A stretch of 64,000 nucleotides of DNA from Symmetrospora coprosmae. Taxonomy: Eukaryota; Basidiomycota; Cystobasidiomycetes; Symmetrosporaceae. Position numbers and translations under genes: made by a program. The notes under the pieces are model-generated. The model saw only the letters and a program-made list of their open reading frames with translations. It was not told the DNA's origin and ran no database searches. The stretch covers positions 1 to 64,000 of the forward strand of contig VUYT01000040.1 of NCBI GenBank assembly GCA_008802785.1, given 5' to 3'. This document shows positions 2,986-30,257 of the stretch, piece by piece; position 1 is the first letter of the stretch, and the number at the start of each line of letters is the position of its first letter.

Positions 2986-4077
2986 TCATGACAGCATCGT
3001 AATCCAGGCCAGCAAGAAGTACAGAAGGATGGCTGGGTAGACACCTAGGAAAGCTCGCGAGTCTTCTAGTCGCGTCCCTCCGAGGAAGTTGACCGCAGCT
3101 GCGTGCGTTTTCGAAATCAGCTTGGTTACCACGCTCGTCGTGCTGTGGTGCTCACCCCAGACGCTCCAGCCAAAGCAGAGGATGCAGACGGGTATGCGAA
3201 TCCAGAGTATCCGGACGAAGGTTGCGATAAGCGCTGCCACATCCAGGGGGAACAGGCAGTAGCCCAGAGCGCAGAGCGATTGCAGGAAAGAGCTGTTGGT
3301 AGTAGGGCGTCAGCGGCGTTCGTCCGGCACAGGTACAAGCTGCACTTACACCTTGCCGCCCAGTAGTTTGCAATTGAGCGTGACAACAACGCTGCCTACA
3401 CTGACGATAACGAACACGCCCGTAAAGACGGGTAGTGACTGCTCGGTTGGCGCGTCCAGCGAGAGGAGGATGGCGAGTGTGATTGTGAAGAGCAGCGGAC
3501 CCCAAAGATCCCAGTCGCGCAAGACGGCATTCCCTGCAGTAGGATGGAGTACTTGTAGCATCTTCATGTAGATAGCTGTCCATGGGAAGCGTTATTGTCA
3601 GCCCTGTGCCTGAACAGAGCCGTCCCGGTCCCGCTCACCTCGGAGGTCCCGCAGCTACGACGAGCGAGGCGGCAAGGCGTCAGCTGTAACGTCGCGCCCA
3701 CTCGACTCGAGAGGCCCGAGAGGCCCTCTCATACTCACAATGCTGTCCCCGACCGACTCGTCCAAGCTGTCGACGCCCGAGTAGCGCATCTCGACCTTGA
3801 TGCCGCCAATCTCGTGACGGAGGGCTCTTGTCCCAGCTCCTCCTCCTCCAATCTTGCCGGATACGGCGGGCGACGTGGAGCCCGACGAGCCGGCTGCGCG
3901 CGACGGCGGTGCTAGCGTGTTGCTGTTGCTGCTGCCGCCTCCGCTGCTGCTGTTCCCTGCCCGGCCCTTGCCCTTGTCGAGCTGCTCCGCCGAGATGGCG
4001 ACGAGGTCATCATCGTCCGGCTCAATCTCGTCGTTCGTGTTCTGATGCGAAGGGATGGCGTAGCCTGACTTGGACAT
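2986..4077 (-). CDS. Yip1-domain Golgi membrane protein (YIPF6/Yip4-like)
   Basis: Model on the minus strand: exons 4077-3739, 3654-3639, 3575-3350 and 3292-2986; 295 aa. The first 113 residues are polar and disordered with Ser/Gly/Asn runs. The Yip1 domain follows and begins LRDLRAIYMKMLQVLHP, characteristic of the YIPF6 branch, with five hydrophobic segments to the end. The family sits in Golgi/ER membranes and binds Rab GTPases in vesicle traffic. Exon 2 is just 16 bases and is supported by the reading frame across both junctions and by the conserved LRDLRA motif it helps encode. The start is the first ATG of the long frame. The gene converges on the eS6 fragment, leaving 23 bases between stop codons. 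Confidence 0.88.
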
Positions 4078-4248
4078 GATGGAAACGCAGTGGACTGGTC
4101 TGCGTGAGGCCGAACGCTGGGAGTCAAGCTGCGAAGTTCGGGCACGGGCACGCGACAACGGGCCTTGCATGACCGTGAAGTCCAGGATAGAGACGCAACG
4201 AAGAGAATACACTGCTATTGCAACTGCAAGTGATTACTGACGATCCTT

Positions 4249-6292
4249 TCACTGAGCCAGAATGCCCTCGACCCAATCTCCCAACTTCTGCTCCAGCTCA
4301 AAGCGCAACGCGAACGTGTTCAGCTCGTCCGGGAAGTCCTGAGAGTTCGTCAAGTGGTCAGCCTTTCCCTGCGCAGGCAGATGTGTCCAAGACTCACCTC
4401 TGACAGCTTCTTCACGAAGCGCTTCACGCGATCGGGCTTAATGACGCGTTTGAGCGTGACGGCATCTTTAACACCCGCCTTCGCAAGAACGCCCTTGAAT
4501 AATCGCAGTTCGGCAGGGAGTGCACACCTGACCTTCCTCTTAATCTCCGCCAGGCTGTCCCTCTGCGCTTCCCAGTCCATCAGCGATTCGGTGTCCGAGA
4601 GATCCGACTCGGTGTCGAGGTACGGCATGTCCGCGTACAGGCGCTCGGGCGAGCGAAGCTTCGAACGGTCCAGACGGGCCTGAAGAAGCGCGACCGCTGT
4701 AGGAGGAATCGTTGCAGTTCGCTGTGAACCGGAGCTCGCTGATCTTGCATCCCGCAAACGATCCAAGGCGGCTGCTTTAGGAAGAGAAGCAGGCGGTCGC
4801 TCTGCCTCCGAGCGACCAGGAGTCTCGGCGAGAGCGGTGCCTTGAGAGGAACTTTTCGTCGTTTGTCGAGCCCGAGGTACGGCAGGGATTTCGATGACCA
4901 CCTCAGGAATTCCTCTCTTTCGCTTCCTAGCGAAAGCAGCGGCACGCCTTTTACGTTTAGTGATGACGAGGTCAGCTTCGATAAGCCACGATGACCGCTA
5001 GCATGTAGACTCACTCTGTCAGCGGTCGAGTATGACGAGCGGAGGCGGTGACACGCATGCTCTCGTCTTCAGATGAGGATATAAGCACGACGCGGCGGAC
5101 AGGCCGGCTGGACTTGCGAGCCGTCATGCCGGGCTTCTTCACAATTGCTCTGCGACAGTGTCAGACGTTTGAGACAAACCCGAAGCGCATATAGAGCATT
5201 GCTCACCTGTGCGTCCTGGGCTTGAGAGGCACATCGTTGTTGTCCGAGCTCTCCGAGGCCTTCTCTACCCGTCGAGTATGGGCGTGATGTTCAGACTTTC
5301 TATCCTGAGGTCGCTTGATTGCCTTGCTTGGATGATCATGCACACTCGAGCGGGAGGAGTCGGCGTGCTGCGTGGTAGCCTCGGCCGCTCCACTGGCGAC
5401 GGCGAGGACTTGCCACGCCTGTCTGTCTACGCATCTGCTGGCCGATCGGCTTGAGCCGTTTATCAGGCTTTGATGGGAGTGATCCGAATCGACCGACAGT
5501 GACTGAACACTTGCATCCGTGTCCACGAGCCCTTGTGATTCACTTGCTTTCCCTTCTGGTCGAGCAGTGCTCGCTAATTTGCGCCGCAGTCTCGACCTGG
5601 CTTCAACCTCCCTCATGTACCTCCTCCTCTTCTCGGCATATTGTGGATTCATGCGCTGCAGTTCCTTGATCTTCGCTCGCTCTTTCCGGCCATTGAGTGT
5701 GCGCTTATCGAGGATGCTTCCACCGACCGAGTGAAGCGCTTCTGCGAGGAGGACTTGCTCCGCCCCGCTCAGCGCTGGGCAGAACGTAGCGATGTGACGG
5801 TAGATGATGGCGATATGTACATGTCGAAGATGCCTGTATGGGGCTGTACGACTGAAAGGCCCTTTGCAGATTCTACAGACTGGACCTGGGGTCACAATAT
5901 CAGCTAACGTCGGTAACAGCTAGACAAGTACTTGGTGCGGCTTACAAGCGTAAGGATGCGCTTCCCCGCTACAAAGGAAGCTAGGAAAGCAAGTCTCGTC
6001 AGAGCCTGGGCACCTTGGGCGTGCACGTCCGTCGACCTGCAAGTCGAGGCGACCGCTTTGCGGCTTACTCGCAGGATGCTTCAGCATGAGTGTACTCCAC
6101 AGCGCTTCTCTGCGCGGCGTAAAGTCTGACTCGCGTTCCCTTGTGCTGACGAGGTTCGAGGGCTTGGCCTGGCGCAACGCCTTCACGAAGCTCTCGTAGA
6201 ACCTGCTCCAGCGGTTTCATCGGTTGTTTGACGCCGCCGACCACGCTATACTGATTCGCGAGCCTGTCCGGCTGTCTATTGCTGCCAGCCAT
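4249..6292 (-). CDS. Unknown family, copy A: C2HC finger-like protein
   Basis: Six exons on the minus strand: 6292-6069, 5980-5946, 5885-5207, 5149-5015, 4926-4398 and 4338-4249; 563 aa. I do not recognise the family. In order: a conserved head (MAGSNRQPDRLANQY, then LEQVLRELREGV); a short exon-2 segment FLCSGEAHPYA; a probable finger CRIC-x23-H-x4-C ending IYRHIATFC; a basic stretch with NPQYAEKRRRYMREVEAR; a Ser/Arg-rich linker; ARKSSRP followed by RRVVLISSSEDES; PEVVIEI; and a C-terminal helical block with VIKPDRVKRFVKKL. Copy B downstream aligns through all of these. Introns have canonical ends and the same phases in both copies. The composition (finger, basic patches, acidic Ser clusters) suggests a nuclear DNA- or chromatin-associated role, but this is inference. 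No transposase, reverse transcriptase or terminal repeat is seen. Confidence 0.75.
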
Positions 6293-6780
6293 GGTAGGCA
6301 GTAGTCGTCAGCGGTGGAAGCCATCGACTTTGAGTCTTTCGCGGACCGGTCTCCTCGTCTGCCCGCGCGGTTGTATACGTGTTGCAGTATCGCGAAGAGA
6401 AGCGGGAACGGACAACGGGGATATAGGAGTGAATTTACAGCGTGAGGAGTCAACCCGACTCGGAGCACCCGATACACGGCTTACGGCTGCCCCATTTGGC
6501 CGCCTGGGATGTTCTCAAGAAGGCTTCCATGTGCCCGTCGTGTCTGTGACGCTCAACAGGCTTGATGAGGCGATAGAGCGTACTGGTAGCACTGTGGCCG
6601 CCGGCGCGGTCTGCAGAAGCCAATGGTCGATTGACGCCTAGGAGCGCAATATGCAGGATCGAGGGAGATCCTAGCGGCAGTGGACTGTGACGAAGTGCCA
6701 CCATGGCACTGTTATACAACCGAGCGAAAGGCTAGGGGCCCTTTCGAAAAATCCGAGCTACGATGACAACGTGCTCCGAC
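6293..6780. promoter_or_regulatory. Spacer between the two copies of the unknown family
   Basis: This 488-base stretch lies between the start of copy A and the stop of copy B, so it holds the copy A promoter and copy B 3' end. Open frames here are short and resemble neither copy. I see no repeat that would mark the duplication junction. Confidence 0.4.
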
Positions 6781-8759
6781 TCAGGCAGGCGCCGCTAGAA
6801 GCACGGTCAACGTTTCAGAAAGGTGGAAGCGGAAGGCCATGTCCTTTAACTGCTCGGGACAAGCCTGCACAAGACTGTCAGTTTGAGGTGCGTTACTCCT
6901 GCGCCGCCGCCACCACGCACCGCTTGCAAGTCTTGCACAAACTTGTCGACCCGGTTCGGTTTGACTACCTCCCGCAGCCGCGCCTCATCAGCGAAACCTG
7001 CTTTCTTGAGAAGCGGTCGAAACTCGTCAAGCACGGCTGGAAAGGCCTCGCGCGCGGCTTTAACCCTGCGCTTCAAGAGGTATTGCTCCTCGCGATTAGC
7101 GTTCCATGCCTTTTGCTCTTCATCTCCCGAGGAATCGGTCTCAACGCGGGGCACATCGCAATCGTCTCCCGGCAGGCGTTGCTTTCGTTCTGCAAGTGCT
7201 GCCTGCAGGACTTCCGCTGAAGTTGGAGGGGCGCGCCCAGCAGCCTTTGCAGCTGACGTGGACGATTTGTCTGTCTGCCGGAGACCAGAAGCGATCGCAG
7301 CCGCTGGTGTCGCAGGGATCGCACTAACCAGTCGCGCAGCGGGAGTAACCGCTGGCAGGGTGCTCTGGGAAGTACTCGTACTCGATTGCCGCGCCAGCCT
7401 TCCGGCCTGTATCTCGATGACCACTTCGGGAATGGCTTGCACACTTCTTTGCAGCGGTCTCGTCTCTCCCCTTTTCCTATGGAAAGGGCAGCTAACACGA
7501 TCAGACAGCTGTCACAATCGCGAGTGTTCCGATATGTCGATCGACGAAAGCTTACCGCGGACGTGGGCGCAATTCGCTGGCCGAAGCCAAGATGGGCATG
7601 CTTTCGCTTTCTGACGAGGATATATGGACGACTCTACTGGCCGGCCGGCCTGATTTGCGAGCACCCCTGCCCGGATACCTCTCCGGTACCCTGTGGAAAT
7701 GATCAGTTGATTCATCTTCACATCAGATTAGACAGCGAGACGTACGTCTTGCTCAATGCCCCATGAGGCATGTCGTCATCCTGAGAGCTATCTGAGCTTG
7801 TTTCTACTTTCTTGCTCTTGACGGCAGACCTCTCCTTCCTCAGCCGCAGAGCTTGTGCAGCCTCTGCTGCGACGCTCGGATAGTCGGGCAGCGTGGTATA
7901 TGAAGACCCGGAGTCGCTCATACTACTGTGACGACGCTTCGGACGAGACGATCGCTCATGTGACCGCCGTGGCCGACCACGGCCGCGTGGCGGCGGTTCC
8001 GACTGGACGTCGCTATCTCCGGGACCTGGGGTGTCGGGCGAGGCCATCCGGCCGTCGACCGCACTTTTACGCTGATAGGCCCGTCGAGCATATTCTCGCG
8101 ACTGTCGTCGCCAGTTCTCGGCAAAGTCTGGTTCGTTACGGCGGCGTTGCAGGTTTCTCTCAACCGCCCTCTTCACTCTTGCTGCCTGTGACTCGATGAT
8201 TTCCACATCCAGTGCATATATGGCTGCTGCGAAAAGGCCTCGTTCGTCCGCAGTGAGACCTGTACATATGTCCCGCAGATGCTTGTAGATGGTGACGGGC
8301 TGTACGCTGCGGCTGTCCTTGTGCGCAAACGTGAAGCGCTCTTTGCATATTCTACAGACAGGGCCTGTTATTCGTAATGAGCTCTCCTCTGCAAAGCATT
8401 CGTTGCGTCAAGGACTCAGCCCCTACCAGCATGTAAGTGCGCCTGGCCATCGCAGAGATAGCTGATTTCGCCGTTACAAGCGAGGTCAGCATTGAGGCCA
8501 TCCTCCATCATGTGAACACGCAAACTCACCCACACGCCCTTGGAGCGTGCGAGTCGTCCGCAACGCTTCGCATAGCTGCATATACGTTGACCCGCGCACT
8601 TCGAACCCTGGTGTTCGGCTCGACCGCCTCACCCGGCTCGACGCCGTCTCTGAGCTCTCGAAGCACCTGCTCGAGTAGCTTCATGGGTCGCTTCATTCCG
8701 TTCGGCAGCATTATGTACTGATTGGCGAGCCTGTCAGGCTGACGACTACTGCCAGCCAT
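6781..8759 (-). CDS. Unknown family, copy B: C2HC finger and AT-hook-like protein
   Basis: Six exons on the minus strand: 8759-8530, 8461-8427, 8364-7746, 7690-7556, 7476-6921 and 6864-6781; 552 aa. It is a diverged tandem paralogue of copy A. Exon 2 (35 bases) and exon 4 (135 bases) have exactly the same length in both, and all five intron phases match. Shared blocks include MAGSSRQPDRLANQY, YLCDGQAHLHA, CRIC-x21-H-x4-C ending IYKHLRDIC, ARKSGRP with SRVVHISSSESES, IPEVVIEI, and VVKPNRVDKFVQDL. Copy B also carries RGRGRPRRS, an AT-hook core that copy A lacks. The last exon (ACPEQLKDMAFRFHLSETL) aligns with copy A's DFPDELNTFALRFELEQKL. Function is unknown; DNA binding is inferred from the hook and finger. 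The start is the ATG aligned with copy A's start. Confidence 0.75.
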
Positions 8760-9518
8760 GACAGGCACCTCGCGTCAGACGTCTGCTTTCCCGAGACCGC
8801 GATTTCCGAAGCGGTTGCTGCGAGCGGAGTCAACCCGAAACCGCGTTGCTTTGACCGCTCCGCGTTCGCGAGGTGGCGTGATCCGCCTTCGTGCATCTGC
8901 TCTCGTGCTGCAACGTGCGAGCCCAGCGCATCATCGGACCTGAGCACATGTGCGGCGTCGCGCAGGGGTTGCTGGCAGGATGCGCAGGCGAGTCCGAGCG
9001 CGGCTCTCAGACGAGACACGTGCACACTGCGGGCACGCCACCATTTGCACTTGGGCCTCGTAGACAAGCAGATACTACTGTAGGAGGACACCTCTGCATT
9101 GCTACGGTCGGGCAGCGACAGGCGTGTCTATTGGGCGAAGCTAGTGCGCTGGACATTTTCGGGGTCAAAGGGAACAACAGGGTAGGTGGGGTAAAAACGG
9201 ATGTGCGGCAAGGGTGCACGCGGAGAAAGCGAAACAACACAGGGTTAAAGCCAGCCAGATGCTTGATGGGCTATGACGACGAGGATTGGGGAGGACTGAC
9301 GCGTGAGGACGCCAGGAGCCGGAACTATTCACGTAAGGGGGTAAAAGTGGTGCGAAGGGGCAGGACGACGATGCGGGCTGAGCGTGCGCGGCAGACGAAC
9401 GAGGCCGAGCAGCACATGCTGGCGGGGGTGTGCAGGTACTGATGGTCGGACGAAGGTCGTCGGAGTCGGGTCGAGGTCAATCAAGAAGGTTCGTCGGGCG
9501 AAAAGTCGGAATGCTCTT
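8760..9518. other. Intergenic stretch before the cyclin 3' end
   Basis: This 759-base stretch holds the copy B promoter and the cyclin 3' flank. Open frames on both strands are low in family-like features. A minus-strand frame near 8950-9010 contains CASCQQPL, loosely like a finger, but nothing around it aligns with copies A or B. No RNA gene seen. Confidence 0.35.
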
Positions 9519-11928
9519 CTACTTCATCGATAGTTCGTGTGCCCGCGTGGCGCTCTCGAGCGTCTTCTGGGCCCACTGGCGCGCAAAGATAGAAGCCTTG
9601 AGGAACTTCTTCGAGCTGTACTTCTGGTACACGAACCGCTCCTCGAAGTCGGTCGCCGCAATGGCAGAGAGGAGGAAGGATGTGGGCGTGGCGAGCTGAG
9701 CCTCGGTGTACTTGGAATAGTAAATGAATGGCTCGGACTGTGCAGCATGATCGTTAGCCGATGTTCATCACAATGGGGACAGGGGCACCCACCCAATCAC
9801 CACCGAGCATCTTTCGGGCGAGGTACATGCCGACGGCAGCAATCATGCTGGGCTTGGCTCGGAGGAAGCGGTGGTCAAGGAGCGTGACCTCCATGAGGAA
9901 CTTCGACAGCGTCCTCGTCTGGATGTCGTAGTCGTCGGCCTTGCTAATCCTGCGGACCCACGAGTACGGCGAGCAATACGTCGAGATCTTGAAGTCGAGG
10001 GACTGCGGGCAGGAAGCCAGTCAGACACAGCAGGCATGACGCGAGACGAAGAAAGCTCACCGCCAGGATGATACGCTCTCCCTTGAGGATCTCCTCCCGA
10101 GAGTAGTTGTTCTCGGTCATGTAGACAAACTCGTCGACCGAGGGCGCCATGATCTCCTCGTACTTTGCAGCGACGAACATGGCCGTGATGCCGACGAGCT
10201 GAAGCTTGACGAGCGAGACGATCCGGTTGCTCAGGAAGCGGTCGACGAGGTTGATGGTGATCCACAGCGTCTCTGGCAGCATGTGGTAGCGCATGTGCAC
10301 CTGGAGCAGCCAGTCAATGAGTGTCGAGCGCATCGGCCATTCAATCTCGGTCTGCGAGTCCATGTAGTTCGGGTTCGGCATCGATTCGAGCTGCGAGGGG
10401 TAGACTGGATTAGCGGCTGGACAGACGGCGCGAAGATACGAAACCCACCTCCAGCTCCTCCATGTAGTCGAAGATCTCATCAGCGTACTCGGCGACCATG
10501 GACGTGTCCCACACGTCGAGCTCCTCCTTGTAGTCCTTCTGCACCTCGAGGACACGCTGCTCTGCCTCCCTCTGCACCGTCTGCCTGAGCGCAAGCCAGT
10601 CCTCCGGGTCTCGCTCGCGAGACATCTTGGACGCCGATCCTGCCGCAGCCGTTGAGGCCACGCGCTTCCTGCTCTGCTTGTTGTCGACCTGCATGGCCGA
10701 CTCGACAGCGGGCTTGGCGGCATCCTCAAAGTGCTGGTCGAGGTCGAGCTCAAACGTCTCAGCTGACGAGTTGTCGTGGTGCGTCTGAACATCCATCAGC
10801 GACTCGGCCGCAGACGGGATGGCAGCAGCCTCGTTGCCCTGCAGGTCGATGCCGAGGCCATCCTGCGGCGCAACCTGCTCGAACGAGTCCCCCTCGACGA
10901 CAGTGTCGAGAAGCTCCTCCTGCTGCTGACCATCCTGCTGAGCATTCCAATTGCCTGTCCCGATTCGCGGGGCGTTGGGTGCAAGGGATGCAGTGTTGTC
11001 CGAGGCAGTTCTGCTTCGGCGGTGCGCGCCAGCGGCAGTCTCGGTAGCAGAGTGGAGAGACGTGTGCGAGGACTTTTGAGAAATGACAGAGTGACGCGAG
11101 GCATTCGAGGCGGTGCGTGAGTGGGCAGTCGAAGCGGTGGCGGCGGCAGAGTTGGAGACGGCAGAGACGGACTTTGGTGCGAGTGGCTTGGAGGAAAGGG
11201 TGGCGGACGAAGAAGTGTTTGAGCGGACGTGGACGCTGCCAATCTTGGAATCCTTGTCCTTGCCGCCTGCACGCTGGTCGAGCTGCTGCAGAAGAGATTA
11301 GGAAGGTTTAGTACTGGGGAGGAGGGTGGGACAACCAGCAGAAAAGCACCAACCTTGGTGGCATTGCTCAGATCACCGAGAACCCGACGAGGTCCACCAG
11401 TTGCTGCCTTGCCATCCTTGCCAGTCGCATTCTCCTTCCCTGGAGCGGCTGCAGCAGCCGTTGTGCCTTTTCCCTTGCCAGTGAGGCCAGTGGCGGTCGA
11501 GTTGTTCAGGACGGCCGAGCTGGACGAGACGCGGGCGAGCATGCTCGAAGGCCGCGAGAAGCTTCCAGCTGCAGCACTGCTGGTTGCTCCAGTGGTGGAG
11601 AGGACCGTCTCGTCGACGCTCATCGACTTGGATAGGGGAGCTCGGGATGCTCGTCGCGCTCGAGGCTGCGGGCCACGGGCCCCGACGACGGCAGAAGCAG
11701 GCGACGAGGATGTGGTGGAGGACAAAGAAGGAGCGGCAGAGGGTTGGATGGAACCCAGATGAGCTCCGAACAGCATTCTCATGTCTGTCTCCTGTCTGCT
11801 CCTCCTACCCTTGCAGAGGGAGGAGCAGACCAGATCACTCTCGCTCGTCCGCCCCTCGGCTCGGACACACTCACCTTTGCGATCCCGACACCGGCGCCGC
11901 TCTGTTGTTGTTGTTGTGCTGAAGCCAT
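9519..11928 (-). CDS. B-type mitotic cyclin
   Basis: Six exons on the minus strand: 11928-11875, 11791-11354, 11285-10449, 10390-10061, 10002-9793 and 9737-9519; 695 aa. The long N-terminus is Ser/Ala-rich and carries two APC/C degrons: KEN at about residues 137-139 and a destruction box RRVLGDLSN at about 153-161, both typical of B cyclins. The cyclin N-box begins near residue 460 with MRSTLIDWLLQVH and LETLWITINLVDRFLS-type sequence, followed by KYEEI and the C-terminal cyclin fold ending HELSMK. It would bind and activate CDK1 and be destroyed at mitotic exit. Length is typical for a fungal B cyclin with an extended tail. Exon 3 begins at a tandem CAGCAG acceptor, which could give two isoforms differing by one Gln. 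Confidence 0.92.
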
Positions 11929-18104: not shown

Positions 18105-18826
18105 TCGTTCTAGAGCTCGCTTCATCAGCAGTAGAGGCCAGACGGAATGATAGACCGTCAGTATGAGAAGTCAAGCACAGTTAGTCACTTCAAGGCGGTG
18201 TCAGTCGCGTATGTATAGATAGATCCGCAGCGCTGCAGACAAATCAGTAACGACACCTGACGAGTGTGAGGAGACTCGCTGCAAGGACATAGGGCCGTCG
18301 GATTTTGAGGCCAGCTGTTTCTCTGTGCAGCCTGGTGGTGACCCTGACAGGGCCAGGACGTCTCTCTGCAAAGTCATGGAAAATCTGCACTGATCTGCGA
18401 GGTGAAGCCGTGCCTGGATGACTGTGCGATGACCTGCGCCGCGCCAAAGCGCACGCGCACGCGGCCGGCCATCGGGAATGACGGAATGAGGGGGATGACG
18501 CGACCCTTCGGATTTAGAGCTCGGTTATCCCCGCCCGCCCAGATTTCAATGACTAAAAAGGAGCCGGCCCTGCTGATGCGCGACGCAGTCACAACAATTC
18601 CCTCAACCTAAGCGACCAGTTGGAGCTTCCTCAATTGCATCTCATCGTCCTGCTTTCTCCTCTCCTTTCCGCTGCCGACATCCCTTCGCCTTCCCTCCTC
18701 CTCCCCTCCCCTGACCGCCGTCCCTTTGCGGCCCAGGCGCGCCACGCAGCCTGCGCCCGTGCTGCCGACGCAAGCAAGCGTGACCGGGCGATTCCCACCT
18801 CGCATAGCGATCTTCAAGCTTCAAAG
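18105..18826 (+). promoter_or_regulatory. Upstream region of PDR transporter 1
   Basis: This 722-base stretch precedes the first PDR gene. It includes a C/T-rich leader (about 18640-18720) and one TGACTAA heptamer at 18550-18556, which matches the T(G/T)ACTAA element used by yeast Yap-type bZIP factors. An in-frame open stretch continues upstream of the chosen ATG but has no conserved residues. Confidence 0.4.
18550..18556. promoter_or_regulatory. Candidate Yap-type bZIP response element
   Basis: TGACTAA lies 270 bases upstream of PDR transporter 1. It matches the yeast Yap1 T(G/T)ACTAA element found in multidrug and oxidative stress promoters. A seven-base match is expected by chance about every few kilobases, so it is only suggestive. 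Confidence 0.25.
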
Positions 18827-21800
18827 ATGTCAGGACTCATGCCCTCAGCGGCTGAGGCACAAATGTACCTGGTCGGCACAGACTCTCAGGAGATGAACGG
18901 CAATACTGCTGCTCGCACGCCAGATTCGCCCATCACTTCCGACTCTGACGAGGATGCCACCACTCTCGCCCCGACACCAGCTCCAGCTGCATCGAGCAGT
19001 GGAGGAGCATCACCGCCAAAGCCTTTGCACGGCACAAAACCGCACAATGATGAGGAAGCCGAGTTGCTCAACCGAGCGCGACCTCGTGCGACCTCGCGTG
19101 CTTCCACCCGCTATATGACTGCAGAGGACGTCACCGAGCTTCACCGACAGCTCTCTCGCGTCAACTCTGGCAGATCTGGCGGAACGAGCGGCAGCGTCTA
19201 CAACCCGGAGTCGGACAACTTTGAGCTCGAGCGATACCTTCAGCAGGTTTTCCGCAAGCGCGAGGAAGCCGGACTCGTCGGACGAGATGCCAGTGTCGTC
19301 TTTGAGGATCTCTGCGTCGACGGCCTGGGATCTGGTGTCACCTTTGGCGAGACGCTGGGAAGCCTCTTCGCCAAGCCGATTGAGCTGCTCCGCAACTTCA
19401 ATGCCGTTCGGCACCCGCCCACCAAGCACATCCTGCAGAACTTCACCGGTGCCATCAAGCCTGGAGAGATGCTGCTCGTCCTAGGACGACCAGGCTCTGG
19501 ATGTTCTTCGCTGCTCAAGACGATTGCCAATCACACCGCATCCTTCAGTGACGTGCGAGGAGAGCGAAGCTACTCGGGCATCACACCAAAGGAGATGCTC
19601 AATCACCACGCCGGAGATCTCGCCTACCTACCCGAGGACGACATCCATCTCCCGGTTCTGACTGTCGATCAGACTCTGTGAGTCGTCGCTGCAGCAATCT
19701 AATCCGCTGGTCAGGCACTGACCGAGTCATTTACATACAGCGACTTTGCCGCACACTCGCGAGTTCCCGCCAAAGCAGGTCGTCTCGGTGACAGGAAGGA
19801 GTATGCCGATACGGTCAAAGCAGTCCTGCTCGCAATCTTCGGACTCCGTGCCACTGTCGACACCAAGGTCGGAAATGACTACGTCCGGGGTATCTCGGGA
19901 GGGCAGCGGAAGCGTGTCAGTATCGCAGAGGCCATGCTCACCCGCGCCCGCATCATGTGCCACGACAATGCTACCCGAGGTCTCGACTCGTCTACGTCGC
20001 TCGAATACGTCCAGTCCCTACGAGTTGCCGCGGACATCACGAAGGTCACGACCGTCGTCTCGCTCTACCAGGCCGGCGAGTCGCTCTGGGAGGAGTTTGA
20101 CAAGGTGCGTTAACCTCATTGCATAATGTGGTCTGGAACCTGCTGACTAAGTTGCGCTTCATTTGTAGGTCTGCCTCATCTACGAGGGACGACAGATCTA
20201 CTTCGGCCCTCGAGAGAAGGCATTCGACTACTTCCACGGACTCGGCTACGAGCCGCAGCCACGACAGACCACGCCTGACTTCCTTTGCGCCATCACGGAC
20301 CCCAAGGCCCGTATCGAGCGAGAGGACTTTGAAGGCAGCCGGCCCAAGACTTCGGAGGACTTTGCTCGTGCTTGGACCGAATCCAAGCTCGGCAAGGCCA
20401 ACCTCAAGGAGGTCGCTGACGTCAAAGCCTCTTTCAGCGAGGAGCACCAGCAGAACTACCGTTCGAGCGCAAAGGCCGAGCGAGTCAAGGGTCTTGGCCG
20501 AAAGGCCAGTGAGAAGGAGGCCGACAAGCACGCCAACCCTTACGTCATCTCGTACTGGCAGCAAACCAAGCTTTGCATTCGCCGTCGAGTGCAGCTCCTC
20601 ATGGGCGACCTGCCATCGTTCCTCATTCCCATCGTCGCATCCGTTATCCAGGCCATCATCATCGGTTCCACCTTCTTCCGCATCACCGAGAGCACGATTG
20701 GATTCTTCAGTCGTGGCGGTGTCATCTTCTTTGCCATTCTATTCAACGCACTCCAGGCTCTTGCCGAGATCACCACCTCCTACGCTCAGCGGCCGATCGT
20801 CGTTCGCCAGAGAGGCTTCGCCATGGTCCACCCGTCGTGTGATGCGCTCGCCCAGACATTGGTCGACCTCATTCCCAAATTCCTCCTCGTCTTGGTCTTT
20901 GACATCATCCTCTATTTCTTCACCAACTTGAGCACCGCTCTGGCCAGCCAATTTTTTGTCTTCCTCCTCTTCACCTATATCACCACTCTCACGATGATTG
21001 CGTTCTTCCGAGCTCTCGCTGCCATCACCAAGGCCGAGAGCACGGCGACGACCATTGGTGGTATCGGTGTTCTGGTCTTCGTCATCTAGTGAGTTGGGTG
21101 CCCATAGTTATCGCGGACTATGCTGACGTTCAATGGCACCCCTCTTCAGCACTGGTTACGCTATTCCTCGACCACAGATGCGCATCTACTTCCAGTGGAT
21201 CTCCTACGCCCACCCCATCTCATTCGCCTTCGAGGCGATGCTGGCAAACGAGTTCAGAACAAGGACGGCTACTCCCTGTGCCAACCTGATTCCCACGAAC
21301 GCACCGTCCGTAGCCAATCAGGTCTGTGCTGTGGCTGGCTCGGTACCCGGCCAGGCCACCGTCAACGCCAACGACTATCTCGCCATCAACAACGGCTACT
21401 ACTGGAGCAATGCATGGCGTAATTTAGGGATCCTTCTGGGCTTCTGGATGTAGGTTTTGAGTTCTGCCTATACCGCTTGCCGGGCTACTTTGCTGATCAT
21501 GATCCTGATCGCGCCCCACAGCTTCTTCCTGATCGTCTTCGCTGTCGGAACCGAGTACCAGGTCGACCTCGGAGCCAAGCCCTCCATCATGCTGTTCAAG
21601 CGCGGCAAGGGCAACAAAGACGTCAAGGCGCTCATCAACGCCAGCGGCTCCGACGAGGAGAAGCTGAACAGCGCTTCCGGACCACGCATTGAGGATCAGC
21701 ACGACGACCAGGCTCAGAACGAGGCAGCAGACCAGCTTGAATCGTCAAGCGATGTCTTCATGTGGAAGGGCGTCACGTACAAGGTGCCGACCAAGGACGG

Positions 21801-23959
21801 AGACAGGACCCTTCTCGACAACGTCAACGGCTTCGTCGTCCCTGGCAAGCTTACAGCGCTCATGGGCGAATCAGGCGCAGGCAAGACGACTCTGCTCAAC
21901 GTGCTGGCTCAGCGCGTGACAATGGGAACCATCACCGGAGATATGCTCGTCAACGGTCGACCTCTTCCCAACAGTTTTCAGCGCCAGACCGGCTACTGCC
22001 AGCAGCAGGACGTCCACTTGCCCACCACCACCGTCCGCGAGGCTCTCGAGTTCTCGGCACTCTTGCGACAGCCCAAGTCTACGCCAAAGAAGGAGAAGCT
22101 GGCTTACGTCGACAATGTCATCAAGATGCTGGAAATGGAGTCTTTCGAGAACGCCCTCGTCGGAGAGGTCGGAGAGGGTCTCAACGTCGAGCAGCGCAAG
22201 CGTCTCACCGTTGGTGTCGAGCTCGCTGCCCGACCTGCTCTCCTCGTCTTCGCCGACGAGCCTACTTCCGGTCTCGACAGCCAGTCGGCCTGGTCGATCG
22301 TACAATTCCTCCGCAAACTCGCCGACCATGGACAGGCCATTCTCTGCACCATTCACCAGCCCAGTTCGGAGTTGTTCCAAGTCTTCGACCGCCTCCTCCT
22401 CCTCAAGAAGGGAGGCAAGACCGTCTACTTTGGCGACATCGGCAAGAACTCGCGCACCCTTATTGATTACTTCGAGTCGCACGGCGCCAAGAAGTGCGAG
22501 GAGTCGGCCAACCCTGCCGAGTACATCCTCGAGTGTGTTGGAGCAGGTGCAACAGCAAAGGTTTCTGAAGACTGGGGAGAGATCTGGCAAAAATCCGACG
22601 AGCGCAAGGCTGTTGACAAGGAGCTGAACAGGCTTACGGAAGAGTACAAGGACAAGAAGTCGCAGGCGGAGGATGCGCCCGACGCTGGCCGGAAGTACGC
22701 TGCGTCCTTCGGCACCCAAGTCGGCGTCGTAACCAAGCGTGTCTTTGCCAATTATTGGCGCGACCCGACTTACCTGATTGCCAAGTTGGCTCTCAATATC
22801 ATTGCCGGACTCTTCATTGGTGAGTGCAATGGAAGCATCGGACTATCGAGGGGGGTTTCTGACCAAGACTCGTGCTCTCTTCACAGGCTTCTCCTTCTTT
22901 ATGCCGCCCAACAACCAGTCAGGTCTCCAAGTCTACCTCTTCTCCGTCTTCATGGCCGTTGTTCTGTCCGCCACCCTGGCCCAGCAGATTCAGCCCAAGT
23001 TCATCCAGCTCCGAGCGCTCTATGAGGTGCGAGAAAGGCCGTCCAGGATGTACAACTTCTACGTCCAGACTCTGGCAAGCATTCTCGTCGAGATTCCCTG
23101 GAACATCTTCGCGGGCACGCTCTTCTGGGCGTGCTGGTACTTCACCGTTGGAGGTCAGGCTGGCGAGCGCGCCATCTACGCTTGGGTCACCTATGCTGTG
23201 GCGTTCGAGATCTACTGGCAGACCTTCGCCCAGGCCGTCGCTGCTTTCTCGCCTAACGCCCAAATCGCCTCCGTCATCTTCTCCGGGCTTTTCTCCTTCG
23301 TCATCGTCTTTAACGGTGTCCTGCAGCCTCCTGCTCAGCTTCCCTATTTCTGGCGATCGTGGATGTAAGTCGGCGTCGGGGTGGACCGGGACCCGACTCA
23401 GTTTCTGACAACCTTCTTCCATCTAGGTTCCCGCTCACTCCTTACAGGTACCTTATTGGCGGTCTGCTGTCCAACCTTCTCGGTGGTGTCCAATTGACCT
23501 GCACGGAGCAGCAGACACAGTTCGTCACCCCGCCCGCGGGAGTTGCCAATTGCGCCGCCTACCTCGGAGAGTTCGTCAGCACCGCGACGGGCTTCATCAC
23601 CAACCCAGATGCCTCTGGAGTTCCTTGCGGTTACTGCCAGTACCAGGCTGGTGACGAGTACCTCGAGACGGTCCAGACGCGCTTCAGCGAGAGGTGGCGA
23701 AGTGAGTCACCTTCCACATCATAAGTCTTGATGAATACCCACACTGACGTACATGCAACGCTTAGATCTAGGCATTCTTTTCGCGTACGTTGCTTTTAAT
23801 GTGCTCGTGGTATTTGCCTTCATGGCTCTCCGTTATGTCTCCCTGCCCAAGCTCGGTGGAAAGGGCAAGAAGAGCGGCAAGCAAGACAAGGACAAGAGCG
23901 GACAGCAGAACAAGGAGTTCAAGCAGGAGGAGAAGAGCGCTCGCGGTGAGATTGTCTAG
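18827..23959 (+). CDS. Full-size PDR-type (ABCG) multidrug transporter, copy 1
   Basis: Eight exons: 18827-19677, 19741-20104, 20169-21088, 21150-21449, 21522-22819, 22887-23364, 23427-23701 and 23766-23959; 1559 aa, near the PDR norm of about 1500. Domain order is NBD1-TMD1-NBD2-TMD2. NBD1 has the degenerate Walker [10 protein letters not shown] (about residue 219, Cys instead of Lys), signature GISGGQRKR, and Walker B-like [13 protein letters not shown]2 has a full Walker [10 protein letters not shown] (about 928), the PDR-type signature NVEQRKRLT, and Walker [14 protein letters not shown]. This asymmetry is the family rule. It should pump hydrophobic compounds or lipids across the plasma membrane. 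The start is the ATG that begins [17 protein letters not shown], a head shared with copy 2. A tandem paralogue follows 932 bases downstream. Confidence 0.93.
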
Positions 23960-24891
23960 AGAAGCCCCGCTTCCATCAGCTTCACGTCAACTTTCCTTGT
24001 ACATTGTATCACTGTCTCTAGTTCGCTACCCTTCTAATGCCGTTCAGAGCTCTCATATAATGCAGCAGTATAGACGCCTTGAATTATATGAATGGCTGCT
24101 GGTCCTGCTGAGGAGTCCTGGAAGTAATCCGCACTTCGACCAGTCCCGGCCCGCCGTCTGCAGATTGCCCTTCTCTCCGCACTCCGGTACCCAGACACAG
24201 TGTCCATTCGAGTACATGTCGCCTGTAGGCACGGGACAACACGTCTAGCCTCTGCGTTTGTAAGCTATTCAAACAATCTAGATCTTCCGAACACACGATG
24301 CTGCAGAAGAATCTGTCGGGCCCGTTCAGCCCGAGCAGGAGGAGGACGCTCGGACGTCGGTGGAAACTCGCCAGAGATGAACGTTCACTCGCGTAGACCA
24401 AAAGAAGAGCCAATGAAGCTGTGCAATAATAAGCAATACTCCATCAAGCCCGAGCTGCCCGCTGCCTGGCCATGGCTTGGTCCCCAGATCCTCGGTCACT
24501 GGCACCGAGCGTCGGCCTCGGCCGGAGCGGGCAACTCGCCGAGCGACTACTGCCCATATCCTCCTTGCCTGGGCTTGCGACGCTGCCGTACACCGGTGCT
24601 AACGTATTACTATACTGTACGAGCGGGGCGAGGCCAGCCAGCCATCACGCGTTCCCCGGGTCGCGGCGTGCGCTTGCATCAGCATTGTCGCCCGAGGCTG
24701 TCTGCACCGAGCCTCGATGCTCAGCGCTGTTCAGAATCGCACCGGGCACGCCTTCTGCCTGATCAGAGCAGCTTCTCTTCCCTTCTTACAGTACCTCTTC
24801 TTCTCTTTCTTTCTTACCAAATCGTCATAACACCCCTCCTCTAGAACAGTCCGCACCTTGGACGCGTTCTCGACTGATCAAGCCAAAAGCC
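23960..24891. promoter_or_regulatory. Spacer between the tandem PDR genes
   Basis: This 932-base stretch holds the 3' end of copy 1 and the promoter of copy 2. A pyrimidine-rich run (about 24775-24840) sits just upstream of the copy 2 ATG. No ORF with family features, RNA gene or repeat is seen, and it does not resemble the copy 1 upstream region by eye. Confidence 0.4.
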
Positions 24892-27800
24892 ATGCAGGGC
24901 TCGACACAACAGTCGCCCCAGATGTATCTGGTCGGCGATGAGCAGGCAGGACTGGCAGAGCGACAGCTAGGTCACACAAGCTCCGTGCGCTCGGACGATG
25001 ATGGGACAACGCTAGCTGGGTCTGCTTCTACCCCGGGGGCTACCGGTGTCCATCCCGAAGGGGACGGGAAAGGCGGACTGCACAAAGAGGACCGGCCTAC
25101 AGTTCAGTCCCTGTCCTCAACAAGGCACATCCCCGCAAGCGATATGGCCGAGCTGCACAGGCAGCTCTCCCGCATCGAGACCGGACGTACTGGCAGAACC
25201 AGCGCCAGTGCGTACAACCCAAAGTCAGACAACTTCGAGCTCGAACGCTACCTCAAGCAAGTGTTCCGTGAGAGGGAAGAGGCCGGACTTCTGGCACGCG
25301 AGGCCACTGTGGTCTTTGAGGACCTGTGCGTCGACGGAGTCGGATCGGGCGTCAACTTTGGCGAGACCGTAGGCAGCATCTTCGGTGCGCCTTTGCGCGG
25401 TGGTGGAAAGGCACCAGTCAAGTACATCCTGCAGAATTTCACGGGCGCGGTCAAGTCTGGAGAGATGCTTCTCGTACTTGGTCGACCCGGCTCCGGCTGC
25501 ACATCGTTCCTCAAGACCCTCGGCAACCAGACAGCATCCTTCAGCGAGGTCAGGGGTGACCTGAGCTACTCTGGCATCACTCCGGCCGAGATGCTCGCAC
25601 ACCACGCCGGTGACGTTGCTTACTTGGCTGAGGACGACAAGCATCTGCCAATCCTGACCGTTGATCAAACGCTGTGAGTGTCTACAGGCTGCTCTCGCGG
25701 TCCGGGAGGCGTTACTTGGCACAGCTGACGCGTTCTGCGCCCGCAACAGAGACTTCGCCGCCTCAGCCAGAGTACCAGCCAAGCAAGGCCGAACAGGAGG
25801 GAGAAGGGAATACGCCGATGCTCTCAAGAATGTCTTGTTGGCCATCTTTGGTCTCCGATCAACGGTCGACACCAGAGTCGGGGACGATTACATCAGAGGT
25901 ATATCTGGGGGTCAGCGCAAACGAGTCAGCATTGCCGAAAACATGCTCACCCGGGCTAGGGTCATCTGCCACGACAATGCGACTCGTGGGCTGGACTCGT
26001 CCACGTCGCTAGAATATGTCCAAGCCCTACGAGTGCAGTCGGACATCACCAATATCACGACCATCGTTTCACTGTACCAGTGCGGACAGCCACTCTACGA
26101 AATATTCGACAAGGTCAGTCGGATCCGTTGAACACGCTCATCCATGCAGAGACTGACCAACCCCCTCCCTGCAGGTCTGTCTGATTTACGAGGGTCGACA
26201 AATTTACTATGGTCCAAGGGACAAGGCCTTCGACTACTTCTATGAGCTCGGGTACGAGCCGCAGCTTCGACAGACCACGCCCGACTTCCTCTGTTCCATT
26301 ACAGACCCGAAGGCACGTCTCGTCAGGAAAAACTTCGAGGGCAGTAGGCCAAGGACCTCTGAGGACTTCGCCCGCGTTTGGATTGAGTCGGACCTCGGAA
26401 AAGCCAACGCCAAGGAGGTCGCCGATGTCAAAGCCTCTTTCAGCGAGGAGCACCAGCAGAACTACCGCTCGAGCGCCAAGGCTGAGCGCGTCAAGGGCAT
26501 TGGCTTCAAGGCCAGTCCGAAGACCAAGAAGTCGGGCAATCCCTACGTGCTCTCCTACTGGCAGCAGACCAAGCTATGTGTGCGCCGAAGGGTACAACTC
26601 GCTCTTGGCGATCTGCCGTCTCTGCTCATTCCCATCGCAGCCTACATCATCCAGGTCAGTACCTACATCGCACCCATGTCCGCACCACATCGTCTAATCG
26701 CTCTTCCCCTGCAGGCCATCATCATTGGATCCACCTTCTACCGTATCACCAATGCAAACACTGGCTTCTTCAGCCGTGGTGGCGTACTGTTCTTTTCCGT
26801 CTTCTTCAATGCACTGCAGGCGCTTTCGGAGATCACCACGGCCTTCTCACAGCGGCCAGTGGTCGTCCGTCAGCGAGGCTTTGCGATGGTCCACCCGTCG
26901 TGCGACGCCCTAGCCCAGCTGCTTGTCGACATTCCAGTCAAATTCGTCACAGTACTCATCTTCGACATCATCATCTACTTCTTCTCAAATCTCAGCACCG
27001 CCTTGGCCAGCCAATTCTTCGTCTTCCTCCTCTTTACTTACCTCATCAGTCTCACCATGATCAGTGAGTCTCCCAGCTCTTCGCCTGCTTGAAGAAGTCG
27101 ACCTGACTCGCCCTCTTTTGCAGCCTTCTTCCGCATGGTAGCTGCTTTGTGCAGCAACGAAGCCGACGCTACGACTATCGGAAGCGTAGGCATTTTGTCA
27201 TTCCTGATCTATACCGGTGAGCACCGGTAACAGCAAATCAAGCGGGTGGCTGCCGACAGGCTGACTCGCCTCCCCTCTCGTGCAGGCTATGCTCTGCCGA
27301 GGCCAGACATGCGCGTCTACTTTAGATGGATCTCGTATGCCAACCCTGTCTCGTTCGCGTTCGAATCGGTGCTCTCCAACGAGTTCAGGACCAGGACGGC
27401 CACGCCTTGCGCCAACCTCATCCCGCCAGGTGCACCATTGGCTAACCAGGTCTGCCCAGTGCCCGGCGCCATCCCCGGCTCTGCAACTGTCGATGCTACG
27501 CTCTACTTGGATCTGGCTTTCGGGTACTCGTACAGCAACGTCTGGCGCAGTGAGCCTCTGCCGCTTTGCATGCGATTGGCTCCCCTGCTGACACGCTGCT
27601 TCTGAACGGCAGACCTCGGGATCGTGCTGTCGTTCTGGGTTGTTTTCATTGTCGGCCTGGCACTCGCGACCGAGAAGCAGGCGGACCTCGGGGCAAAGCC
27701 GTCCATCATGCTCTTCAAGCGAGGCAAAGGGTCGGAAGATGTTAAAGCACTCATCGAAGCAAAGGCAGGAGACGAGGAGACCCTCAACAGCGCCACCGGG

Positions 27801-30257
27801 CCTCGCATCGAAGACGCTCACGATGGAAAGGCACAAGATGACGCGGCCAACCAGCTCGAAGCTGCCAGCGATGTCTTCATGTGGAAGGGCGTCACGTACA
27901 AGGTGCCCACCAAGGATGGAGACAGGACCCTTCTCGACAACGTCAACGGCTTCGTCGTCCCTGGCAAGCTCACCGCGCTCATGGGCGAGTCCGGTGCAGG
28001 CAAAACTACCTTGCTTAACGTGCTGGCTCAGCGAGTGACAATGGGAACCATCACCGGAGACATGCTCGTCAACGGTCGACCTCTTCCTGCCAGTTTCCAG
28101 CGCCAGACGGGCTACTGCCAGCAGCAGGATGTCCACTTGCCCACCACTACCGTCCGCGAGGCTCTCGAGTTCTCCGCCCTTCTCCGCCAGCCAAAATCCA
28201 CGCCAAAGAAGGAGAAGCTGGCTTACGTCGACAATGTCATCAAGATGCTGGAAATGGAGTCGTTCGAGAATGCTCTTGTCGGAGAGGTCGGAGAGGGTCT
28301 CAATGTCGAGCAGCGCAAGCGTCTCACCGTTGGTGTCGAGCTCGCTGCCCGTCCTGCTCTCCTCGTCTTCGCCGATGAGCCAACTTCCGGTCTCGATAGC
28401 CAGTCGGCCTGGTCGATCGTACAATTCCTCCGCAAACTCGCCGACCATGGACAGGCCATTCTCTGCACCATTCACCAGCCCAGTTCGGAGTTGTTCCAAG
28501 TCTTCGACCGCCTCCTCCTCCTCAAGAAGGGAGGCAAGACCGTCTACTTTGGCGACATCGGCAAGAACTCGCGCACCCTTATTGATTACTTCGAGTCGCA
28601 CGGCGCCAAGAAGTGCGGAGAGGAAGCCAACCCTGCCGAGTACATCCTCGAGTGCGTTGGAGCCGGTGCAACAGCAAAGGTCTCGGAAGACTGGGGAGAT
28701 ATCTGGCAGAAGTCCGAAGAGCGCAAAGTCGTTGACAAGGAGCTCGAGCGACTCGTCAACGAGTACAAGGGCAAGAAGTCGCAAGCGGACGATGCGCCAG
28801 ATGCTGGACGGAAATACGCTGTAAGTGGCTCCTCGTGGTTGCCCCCAAGAGCTCGACTGATCTGGCACGTATGCTTTCAGGCCGGCTTCGGCACGCAACT
28901 CAGTGTTGTCACCAAGCGCATCTTCCAGAACTACTGGCGCGATCCCGTATACTTCTTCGGCAAGCTCTCGAACAATATCCTGGCAGGTCTCTACATTGGT
29001 ACGGCTGACACTTTCACAACAAGATGACTTCGGCAGAGCGCTGACGCGTGCTCCCTCTGTCTCACCAGGCTTCAGCTTCTTCATGCCCAAAGACACTCAA
29101 GCTGGGTTGCAGGTGTACATGTTCTCTGTCTTCATGGCCGTCGTCATCTGTTTCCCGCTCGCACAGCAGATCCAACCCAAGTTCATCCAACTCCGGTCAC
29201 TCTACGAAGTCCGCGAGCGGCCCTCGCGGATGTACAACCTATACGTTCAAGCTGCCGCATCGATTGTCGTCGAGATGCCCTGGAACTTCTTGACGGGGTC
29301 GATCTTCTGGTGCTGTTGGTACTTTGCCGTCGGCGGTCAAACCGGCGAGCGCGCCATCTACTCGTTCATCACCTACACGGTGGCTTTCGAAACGTACTGG
29401 TCGACGTTCGCCCAGGCCATCGCCGTGGTGTCACCGAATGCACAAATCGCCTCCGTCATCTTCTCCAGCCTTTTCGCCTTCGTGATCGTTTTCAACGGTG
29501 TCCTGCAGCCGCCTGCGCAGTTGCCAGGTTTCTGGAGGTCGTGGATGCGAGTGCTTGCTGTTCACGCAGTGGCCGCGGGCCGGAACTATCGGAGCTGACT
29601 TTGGCATCTCGAATCCCGGCATTCCGCGTAGGTTTCCGCTATCCCCGTTCCGATGGCTCATCGGTGGCCTTCTGTCGAATCAACTGGGCGGGCTGGAGTT
29701 CCGATGCAGAGACCAGGAAGTGACCTTCGCCACACCGCCAGCCGGAGCCGGCACCTGCAGCGACTTCCTGGGCGACTTCGTGGCTGCTAGCACGGGATTC
29801 ATCACCAACCCAGATGCCACGGGCGTACCGTGCGGTTACTGTCAGTACGCGACCGGAGATGAGTACCTGAACACCCTGGAAACCGCCTTCAGCCAGAGGT
29901 GGCGAAGTGAGTCGGACTCGTCGTTTTCGCCCCTACCACGCTCGGAGACAGTGCTGACTGTGCTTTCCTTGCGTACGAAGATATGGGCATAGTCTTCGGC
30001 TACGTTGGTGAGCCATGCATTTCTAGATCGCATCGAGGCCCGGTCTCGCGATACTGACTATTCATCCGTCCGGATCCCATGCAGCCTTCAACATCCTCAT
30101 GGTGTTCCTCTTGATGTCGCTCCGATACGTCGATCTGCCCAAATTCAGCTTCGGCGGCCGCGGAACCAAGAGCGTCGAGCACGCGGAGGACGCGACGAGC
30201 GAGCCCGAACACCCGGTGGCCAAACAGGAGAAGGAAGCCGGCACGGAGATAGTGTAA
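24892..30257 (+). CDS. Full-size PDR-type (ABCG) multidrug transporter, copy 2
   Basis: Twelve exons: 24892-25673, 25750-26113, 26175-26654, 26715-27063, 27124-27216, 27286-27549, 27613-28820, 28881-28998, 29069-29546, 29632-29906, 29981-30007 and 30085-30257; 1536 aa. The NBD1-TMD1-NBD2-TMD2 order matches copy 1, with Walker A GRPGSGCTS in NBD1 and GESGAGKTT in NBD2. Exons 2, 9 and 10 have the same lengths as copy 1 exons 2, 6 and 7 (364, 478, 275), but copy 2 has additional introns and one at a different site. Intron 9 (29547-29631) has a GC donor; the paralogue has GT at the same position, so the join is firm. Part of NBD2 is base-for-base identical with copy 1. The exported substrate cannot be read from the sequence. 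Confidence 0.92.

Follow-up and report, generated by a model that had tools for sequence, protein, structure and literature searches.

What might two neighbouring genes do when they align with each other along their whole length and with no known protein family? A locus of the basidiomycete Symmetrospora coprosmae raises the question. It lies in positions 1 to 64,000 of contig VUYT01000040.1 (GenBank assembly GCA_008802785.1), and this stretch of 64,000 nucleotides is called the window here. The two genes, A and B, stand head-to-tail on the minus strand. Our favoured reading, to which we give a probability of about 0.5, is that they encode paired nuclear SUMO-reading zinc proteins that would serve as SUMO-dependent nuclear adaptors. 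It draws on a candidate SUMO-interacting motif (SIM) in exon 4 and on a cluster of eight common cysteines and histidines, in two genes whose sequences identify them as old paralogues.

Two spliced paralogues

From the minus strand of positions 3001-10000, two complete gene models were built by splice-site fitting:

8759-6781, minus strand: gene B, 552 residues, six exons (8759-8530, 8461-8427, 8364-7746, 7690-7556, 7476-6921, 6864-6781)
6292-4249, minus strand: gene A, 570 residues, six exons (6292-6069, 5980-5946, 5885-5207, 5149-5015, 4947-4398, 4338-4249)

Exon lengths are 230, 35, 619, 135, 556, and 84 nt in gene B and 224, 35, 679, 135, 550, and 90 nt in gene A. The phase after exons 1-5 is 2,1,2,2,0 in both, and 10 of 10 introns (55-88 nt) are GT-AG. 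Introns 1, 2, 3, and 5 fall in the identical alignment column of the two genes; intron 4, which lies beside an alignment gap, is shifted by nine columns (365 vs 374), and exon 4 measures 135 nt regardless. Judged by this conservation, both genes are presumably spliced at the modelled sites. An earlier account of this locus (the sequence-only reading) had proposed these coordinates, strand, and exon count, equal lengths of exons 2 and 4, and five matching intron phases, all of which the fitted models bear out. Its recurring blocks were recovered in part: both proteins carry MAGS.RQPDRLANQY and V.KP.RV..FV..L at their ends, but the count of seven blocks was not reproduced. Runs of at least five identical residues between A and B number five.

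The two proteins share 42% of 529 aligned residues, and their global alignment score of 770 compares with a mean of 26 (standard deviation 11, maximum 72) in 500 shuffles. When exons 1, 3, and 5 were used as queries, tblastn inside the window returned the other copy at E values of 1e-12 to 1e-25 and no third copy (best other match, E 0.038). Differences across the 529 aligned codons number 219, 208, and 344 at positions 1, 2, and 3. Overall synonymous divergence (dS) is 4.20 and nonsynonymous divergence (dN) 0.57; synonymous differences are near saturation, with dS infinite in four of eight blocks. Exon 1 has a dN of 0.29 vs a dS of 2.21, exon 4 has a dN of 0.39 and the lowest dS among the eight blocks (1.22), and 83 of 126 fourfold sites in matched codons differ. 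With identity far above that of shuffles and synonymous differences nearly saturated, sequence comparison leads us to regard A and B as genuine, spliced paralogues that arose by an old head-to-tail tandem duplication and have been maintained by selection at the protein level. The claim that they are not chance open reading frames is thus supported by splice structure, shuffles, dN/dS, and fourfold sites.

By codon usage, the proposed frame is the best of six for each gene, modestly so (0.116 for A and 0.025 for B, with the 95th percentile of random window stretches at 0.053), and scores are below zero in exon 2 of gene A and exons 2, 4, and 6 of gene B. The coding claim for gene B is therefore made on homology, as its codon-usage score alone would not pass. 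Antisense to exon 5 of gene B, the plus strand has a stop-free frame of 254 residues (6850-7611), which is probably a shadow of the gene B coding frame.

The window also holds a second tandem pair, of PDR-like ABC transporters, on the plus strand at ~18500-29700. One pair of open reading frames there is 85% identical over 453 aligned residues and differs at 56 of 200 fourfold sites. Judged by these fourfold differences, the duplication of A and B looks older than that of the transporters.

A candidate SUMO-interacting motif

Exon 4 of both genes encodes RVV(L/H)ISSSE(D/S)ES, with the core RVVLISSSEDES in A and RVVHISSSESES in B. Both copies have the form of a SIM, a core of [VI][VI]x[VI] followed by acidic or serine residues:

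5068..5091, minus strand: SIM-like VVLISSSE of gene A, exon 4, residues 333-340
7609..7632, minus strand: SIM-like VVHISSSE of gene B, exon 4, residues 315-322

A strict version of the pattern, in which four of D/E/S follow the core, is found at the matching place in both proteins; three of 2000 shuffled A sequences and one of 2000 shuffled B sequences contain it. Among six-frame stretches of at least 40 residues (96,117 residues), these are its only two places in the window; with a minimum of 60 residues there is no match, as neither exon 4 frame is that long. Identity reaches 58% in the block of exon 4, the second most conserved of eight, vs 26% and 41% in the blocks that flank it. CK2-like [ST]-x-x-[DE] sites overlap the motif in both genes. 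We infer from the motif that both proteins may bind SUMO.

A SIM peptide of human PML used in nuclear magnetic resonance work is printed as WGEAEERVVVISSSEDSDAEN (PMC5646861). The phospho-SIM of PML, with RVVVISSSEDSD, shares with A and B an arginine, a VVxI core, and an SSSE(D/S) tail in equal order, but likeness is limited to the motif, PML being a RING/B-box/coiled-coil (TRIM) protein. RING and B-box domains have no Pfam match in A or B up to E 10, and the exon 4 peptide of gene A, searched by itself, has no PDB-sequence match up to E 10. PML is not known from fungi.

The Cys/His cluster

Cysteine or histidine occupies 35 alignment columns in one protein or the other. Eight columns are common to both, all inside residues 71-122 of gene B (8 of 14 columns inside vs 0 of 21 outside; Fisher p 0.00013 for an interval picked after the data were seen). 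The common pattern is H-x4-C-x3-C-x4-H-x6-C-x2-C-x21-H-x4-C in B, with x23 in place of x21 in A:

8264..8549, minus strand: Cys/His cluster of gene B (H71 C76 C80 H85 C92 C95 H117 C122), exons 1-3, with two introns inside
5779..6088, minus strand: Cys/His cluster of gene A (H69 C74 C78 H83 C90 C93 H117 C122), exons 1-3

These common residues suggest zinc binding, and their number, eight, would fit a pair of bound zinc ions. Conservation peaks in the block formed by the first 73 residues (62% identity), which has no match in Pfam; the N-terminal third has no accepted PDB-sequence match.

Two structure models were made, each from a two-row alignment, of the exon 3 part of gene B and the exon 5 part of gene A. 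The AlphaFold model of the exon 3 part has a mean predicted local distance difference test score (pLDDT) of 75.3 and a predicted template modelling score (pTM) of only 0.39, and covers none of the four ligands that come from exons 1 and 2. It predicts a helix over the histidine of the H-x4-C half (block pLDDT 77-83) and two long helices after it; near C-x2-C it has single bridge residues only.

SUMO-targeted ubiquitin ligases of the RNF4 or Slx5-Slx8 type have a SIM and a Cys/His cluster, the latter in the RING order C3HC4. A and B likewise unite a candidate SIM with a Cys/His cluster in one protein, but their ligand order is H C C H C C H C and they have one strong SIM only. They resemble C2HC, BED, and UBZ4-type zinc fingers in having C-x2-C and then H-x4-C, with the histidine on a predicted helix in the model, and differ from them in the loop of 21-23 residues, the four additional Cys/His that come before, and the lack of a Pfam match. 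Unlike in rubredoxin-like domains, the first pair is C-x3-C in both proteins and CPVC of A is GPVC in B; two C-x2-C knuckles, the hallmark of rubredoxin, are not kept in both genes. A PML-like, RING-ligase, or rubredoxin identity was rejected because the tested defining features are absent.

Other conserved parts

Each protein runs from the conserved N-terminus through the Cys/His cluster, a basic predicted helix, and a linker to a conserved C-terminus. The linker is rich in serine and arginine and poorly conserved, and holds the SIM-like block. Further features are as follows:

7410..7433, minus strand: IPEVVIEI of gene B, block identical in A, in which VIEI is a weak SIM-core-like match
4887..4910, minus strand: IPEVVIEI of gene A, identical block, directly after KRKR, which resembles a nuclear localization signal
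6781..7085, minus strand: conserved C-terminal region of gene B
4249..4553, minus strand: conserved C-terminal region of gene A

IPEVVIEI was not counted as a second SIM; VIEI-type patterns occur in 385 of 2000 shuffles of A and 277 of 2000 of B. For the share of the C-terminal region encoded by exon 5 of gene A, four helices are predicted at low confidence (mean pLDDT 61.8).

Searches for relatives

In Pfam, searches up to E 10 gave two sub-threshold matches and no others, DUF6284 (0.96, gene B) and RUBY_RBDX (0.75, gene A). Single matches in PHROGs (0.14) and NCBIfam (0.58) were taken as chance. The best PDB sequence was a rubredoxin, both for the full-length profile (E 0.15) and for the N-terminal third (E 0.029); the cysteine pairs do not fit a rubredoxin-like domain, and the match around CGYLC...PVC..C was likewise set aside as chance. 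For the C-terminal part, the best PDB sequence was a chain of 1593 residues (0.49). Although 51 stretches of the viral contigs and 55 of the prokaryote genomes fit the search pattern, none was confirmed; neither collection is fungal, hence these results say little. Judged by title, no paper found in one open-access literature collection describes such a family, which cannot show that the family is unpublished. Absence of a known family over the full length, as the sequence-only reading had it, is upheld for Pfam, NCBIfam, PHROGs, and PDB sequences. The genes still fit no family, but they are not featureless, given the eight common Cys/His and a near-copy of the PML SIM.

Weighing the readings

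If A and B are paired SUMO-reading zinc proteins, their location would be nuclear. There the SIM would dock onto SUMO itself or onto SUMOylated proteins, and CK2-type phosphorylation of the motif's serines would perhaps tune docking; the zinc part together with the basic stretch would hold DNA or another partner. Several observations weigh against this reading. The comparison of A and B involves two sequences only. The evidence for SUMO docking is a short motif, for which the strict pattern was composed after the motif was seen; a looser pattern arises in 52 of 2000 shuffles of A and 45 of 2000 of B, and gene B has histidine at the third core position. Protein identity in exon 4 may partly reflect less DNA divergence, as its dS is the lowest. 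The Fisher p for the Cys/His cluster is optimistic because of the choice of interval, and zinc-finger families give no Pfam match even at E 10, although the long loop may defeat profiles. Candidate nuclear signals differ, with KRRR and KRKR in A only and an AT-hook-like RGRPR in B only. When the models were searched against PDB with Foldseek, the exon 3 model gave 11 matches up to E 10 (best 4.6) and the exon 5 model 2 (best 6.4), none at or below 0.001.

The main rival is a reading that we regard as possible at odds clearly short of even: A and B could be DNA-binding transcription regulators, in which a C2HC-type finger and basic helices bind DNA and the resemblance of exon 4 to a SIM either means nothing or marks a docking site of minor importance. 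The C-x2-C-x21/23-H-x4-C spacing resembles that of C2HC and BED-type fingers, the long helices that follow the finger in the exon 3 model are rich in arginine and lysine, and RGRPR of gene B looks like an AT-hook. Yet the AT-hook-like site is not kept in gene A, the missing Pfam zinc-finger match tells against this reading too, and the exon that carries the SIM is exceeded in conservation by one block only. A scaffold for other protein interactions, neither SUMO-dependent nor DNA-binding, whose N- and C-terminal parts bind other partners, would agree with a most conserved N-terminus that matches nothing and a C-terminal part likewise without match by PDB sequence or fold. It offers no explanation for the close likeness between exon 4 and the PML SIM, and we consider it improbable.

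Orphan zinc proteins can derive from transposases, and a 30-nt inverted pair (87%) brackets gene B and the intergenic stretch, as might be expected if the genes were domesticated mobile-element proteins or a mobile element's own. However, the pair consists of the start-codon stretches of the two genes (6283-6312 and 8738-8767, 87% reverse-complementary over 30 nt). Each start region is near-palindromic, with 16 of 24 pairs centred on the ATG in gene A (0 of 1000 shuffles as good) and 14 of 24 in gene B (67 of 1000), so that the inverted match is explained by paralogy. Four other listed inverted pairs measure 14-20 nt and none flanks a gene. With five common introns, no Pfam transposase match, and no third copy in the window, a mobile origin is very improbable. 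SUMO-reading zinc proteins remain the favoured reading. An extension of it is offered tentatively and is more doubtful: A and B would represent a fungal family, so far undescribed, in which paired SUMO readers join a PML-type phospho-SIM to an unusual two-zinc N-terminal module, and fungi would have evolved or retained PML-like SUMO docking.

Upstream regions and genomic setting

A 13-mer is found upstream of both genes:

8826..8838, minus strand: TCGGGTTGACTCC upstream of gene B
6446..6458, minus strand: TCGGGTTGACTCC upstream of gene A

With at most one mismatch, this pattern, chosen after the match was seen, occurs in the window at these two places only (expected 0.17), and the local alignment score of the upstream regions was reached in 1 of 200 shuffles. 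It may be a control element common to A and B since their duplication. A predicted RNA hairpin (8722-8792, minus strand) encloses the start codon of gene B (-33.3 kcal/mol, z -2.93, with 1 of 200 shuffles folding as well), whereas folding of the corresponding region of gene A is not unusual (z -0.34).

A gene upstream on the same strand encodes a Cyclin_N domain (E 2.9e-40), and a gene downstream has two Yip1 matches, both partial and one under the Pfam cut-off. Pfam searches of 20 window stretches left five without a match. Matches at E <=0.001 include ABC transporters (with a weak PDR_CDR match), aldo/keto reductase, SET, SIR2, MYND, fasciclin, PRP4-like, and biotin-protein ligase domains; the window also has an ArAE_2_N/BRE4 match, which, like the PDR_CDR match and the shortness of the introns, would be in keeping with a fungus. 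G+C content is 57-62% in 4-kb steps, and no tRNA or Rfam family was found in the window.

Implications

If the favoured reading is true, it would assign a function to a protein family that Pfam does not match, and would document in a fungal genome a motif familiar above all from human PML. An anonymous gene pair now offers testable clues in its zinc-type cluster and SUMO-type motif.

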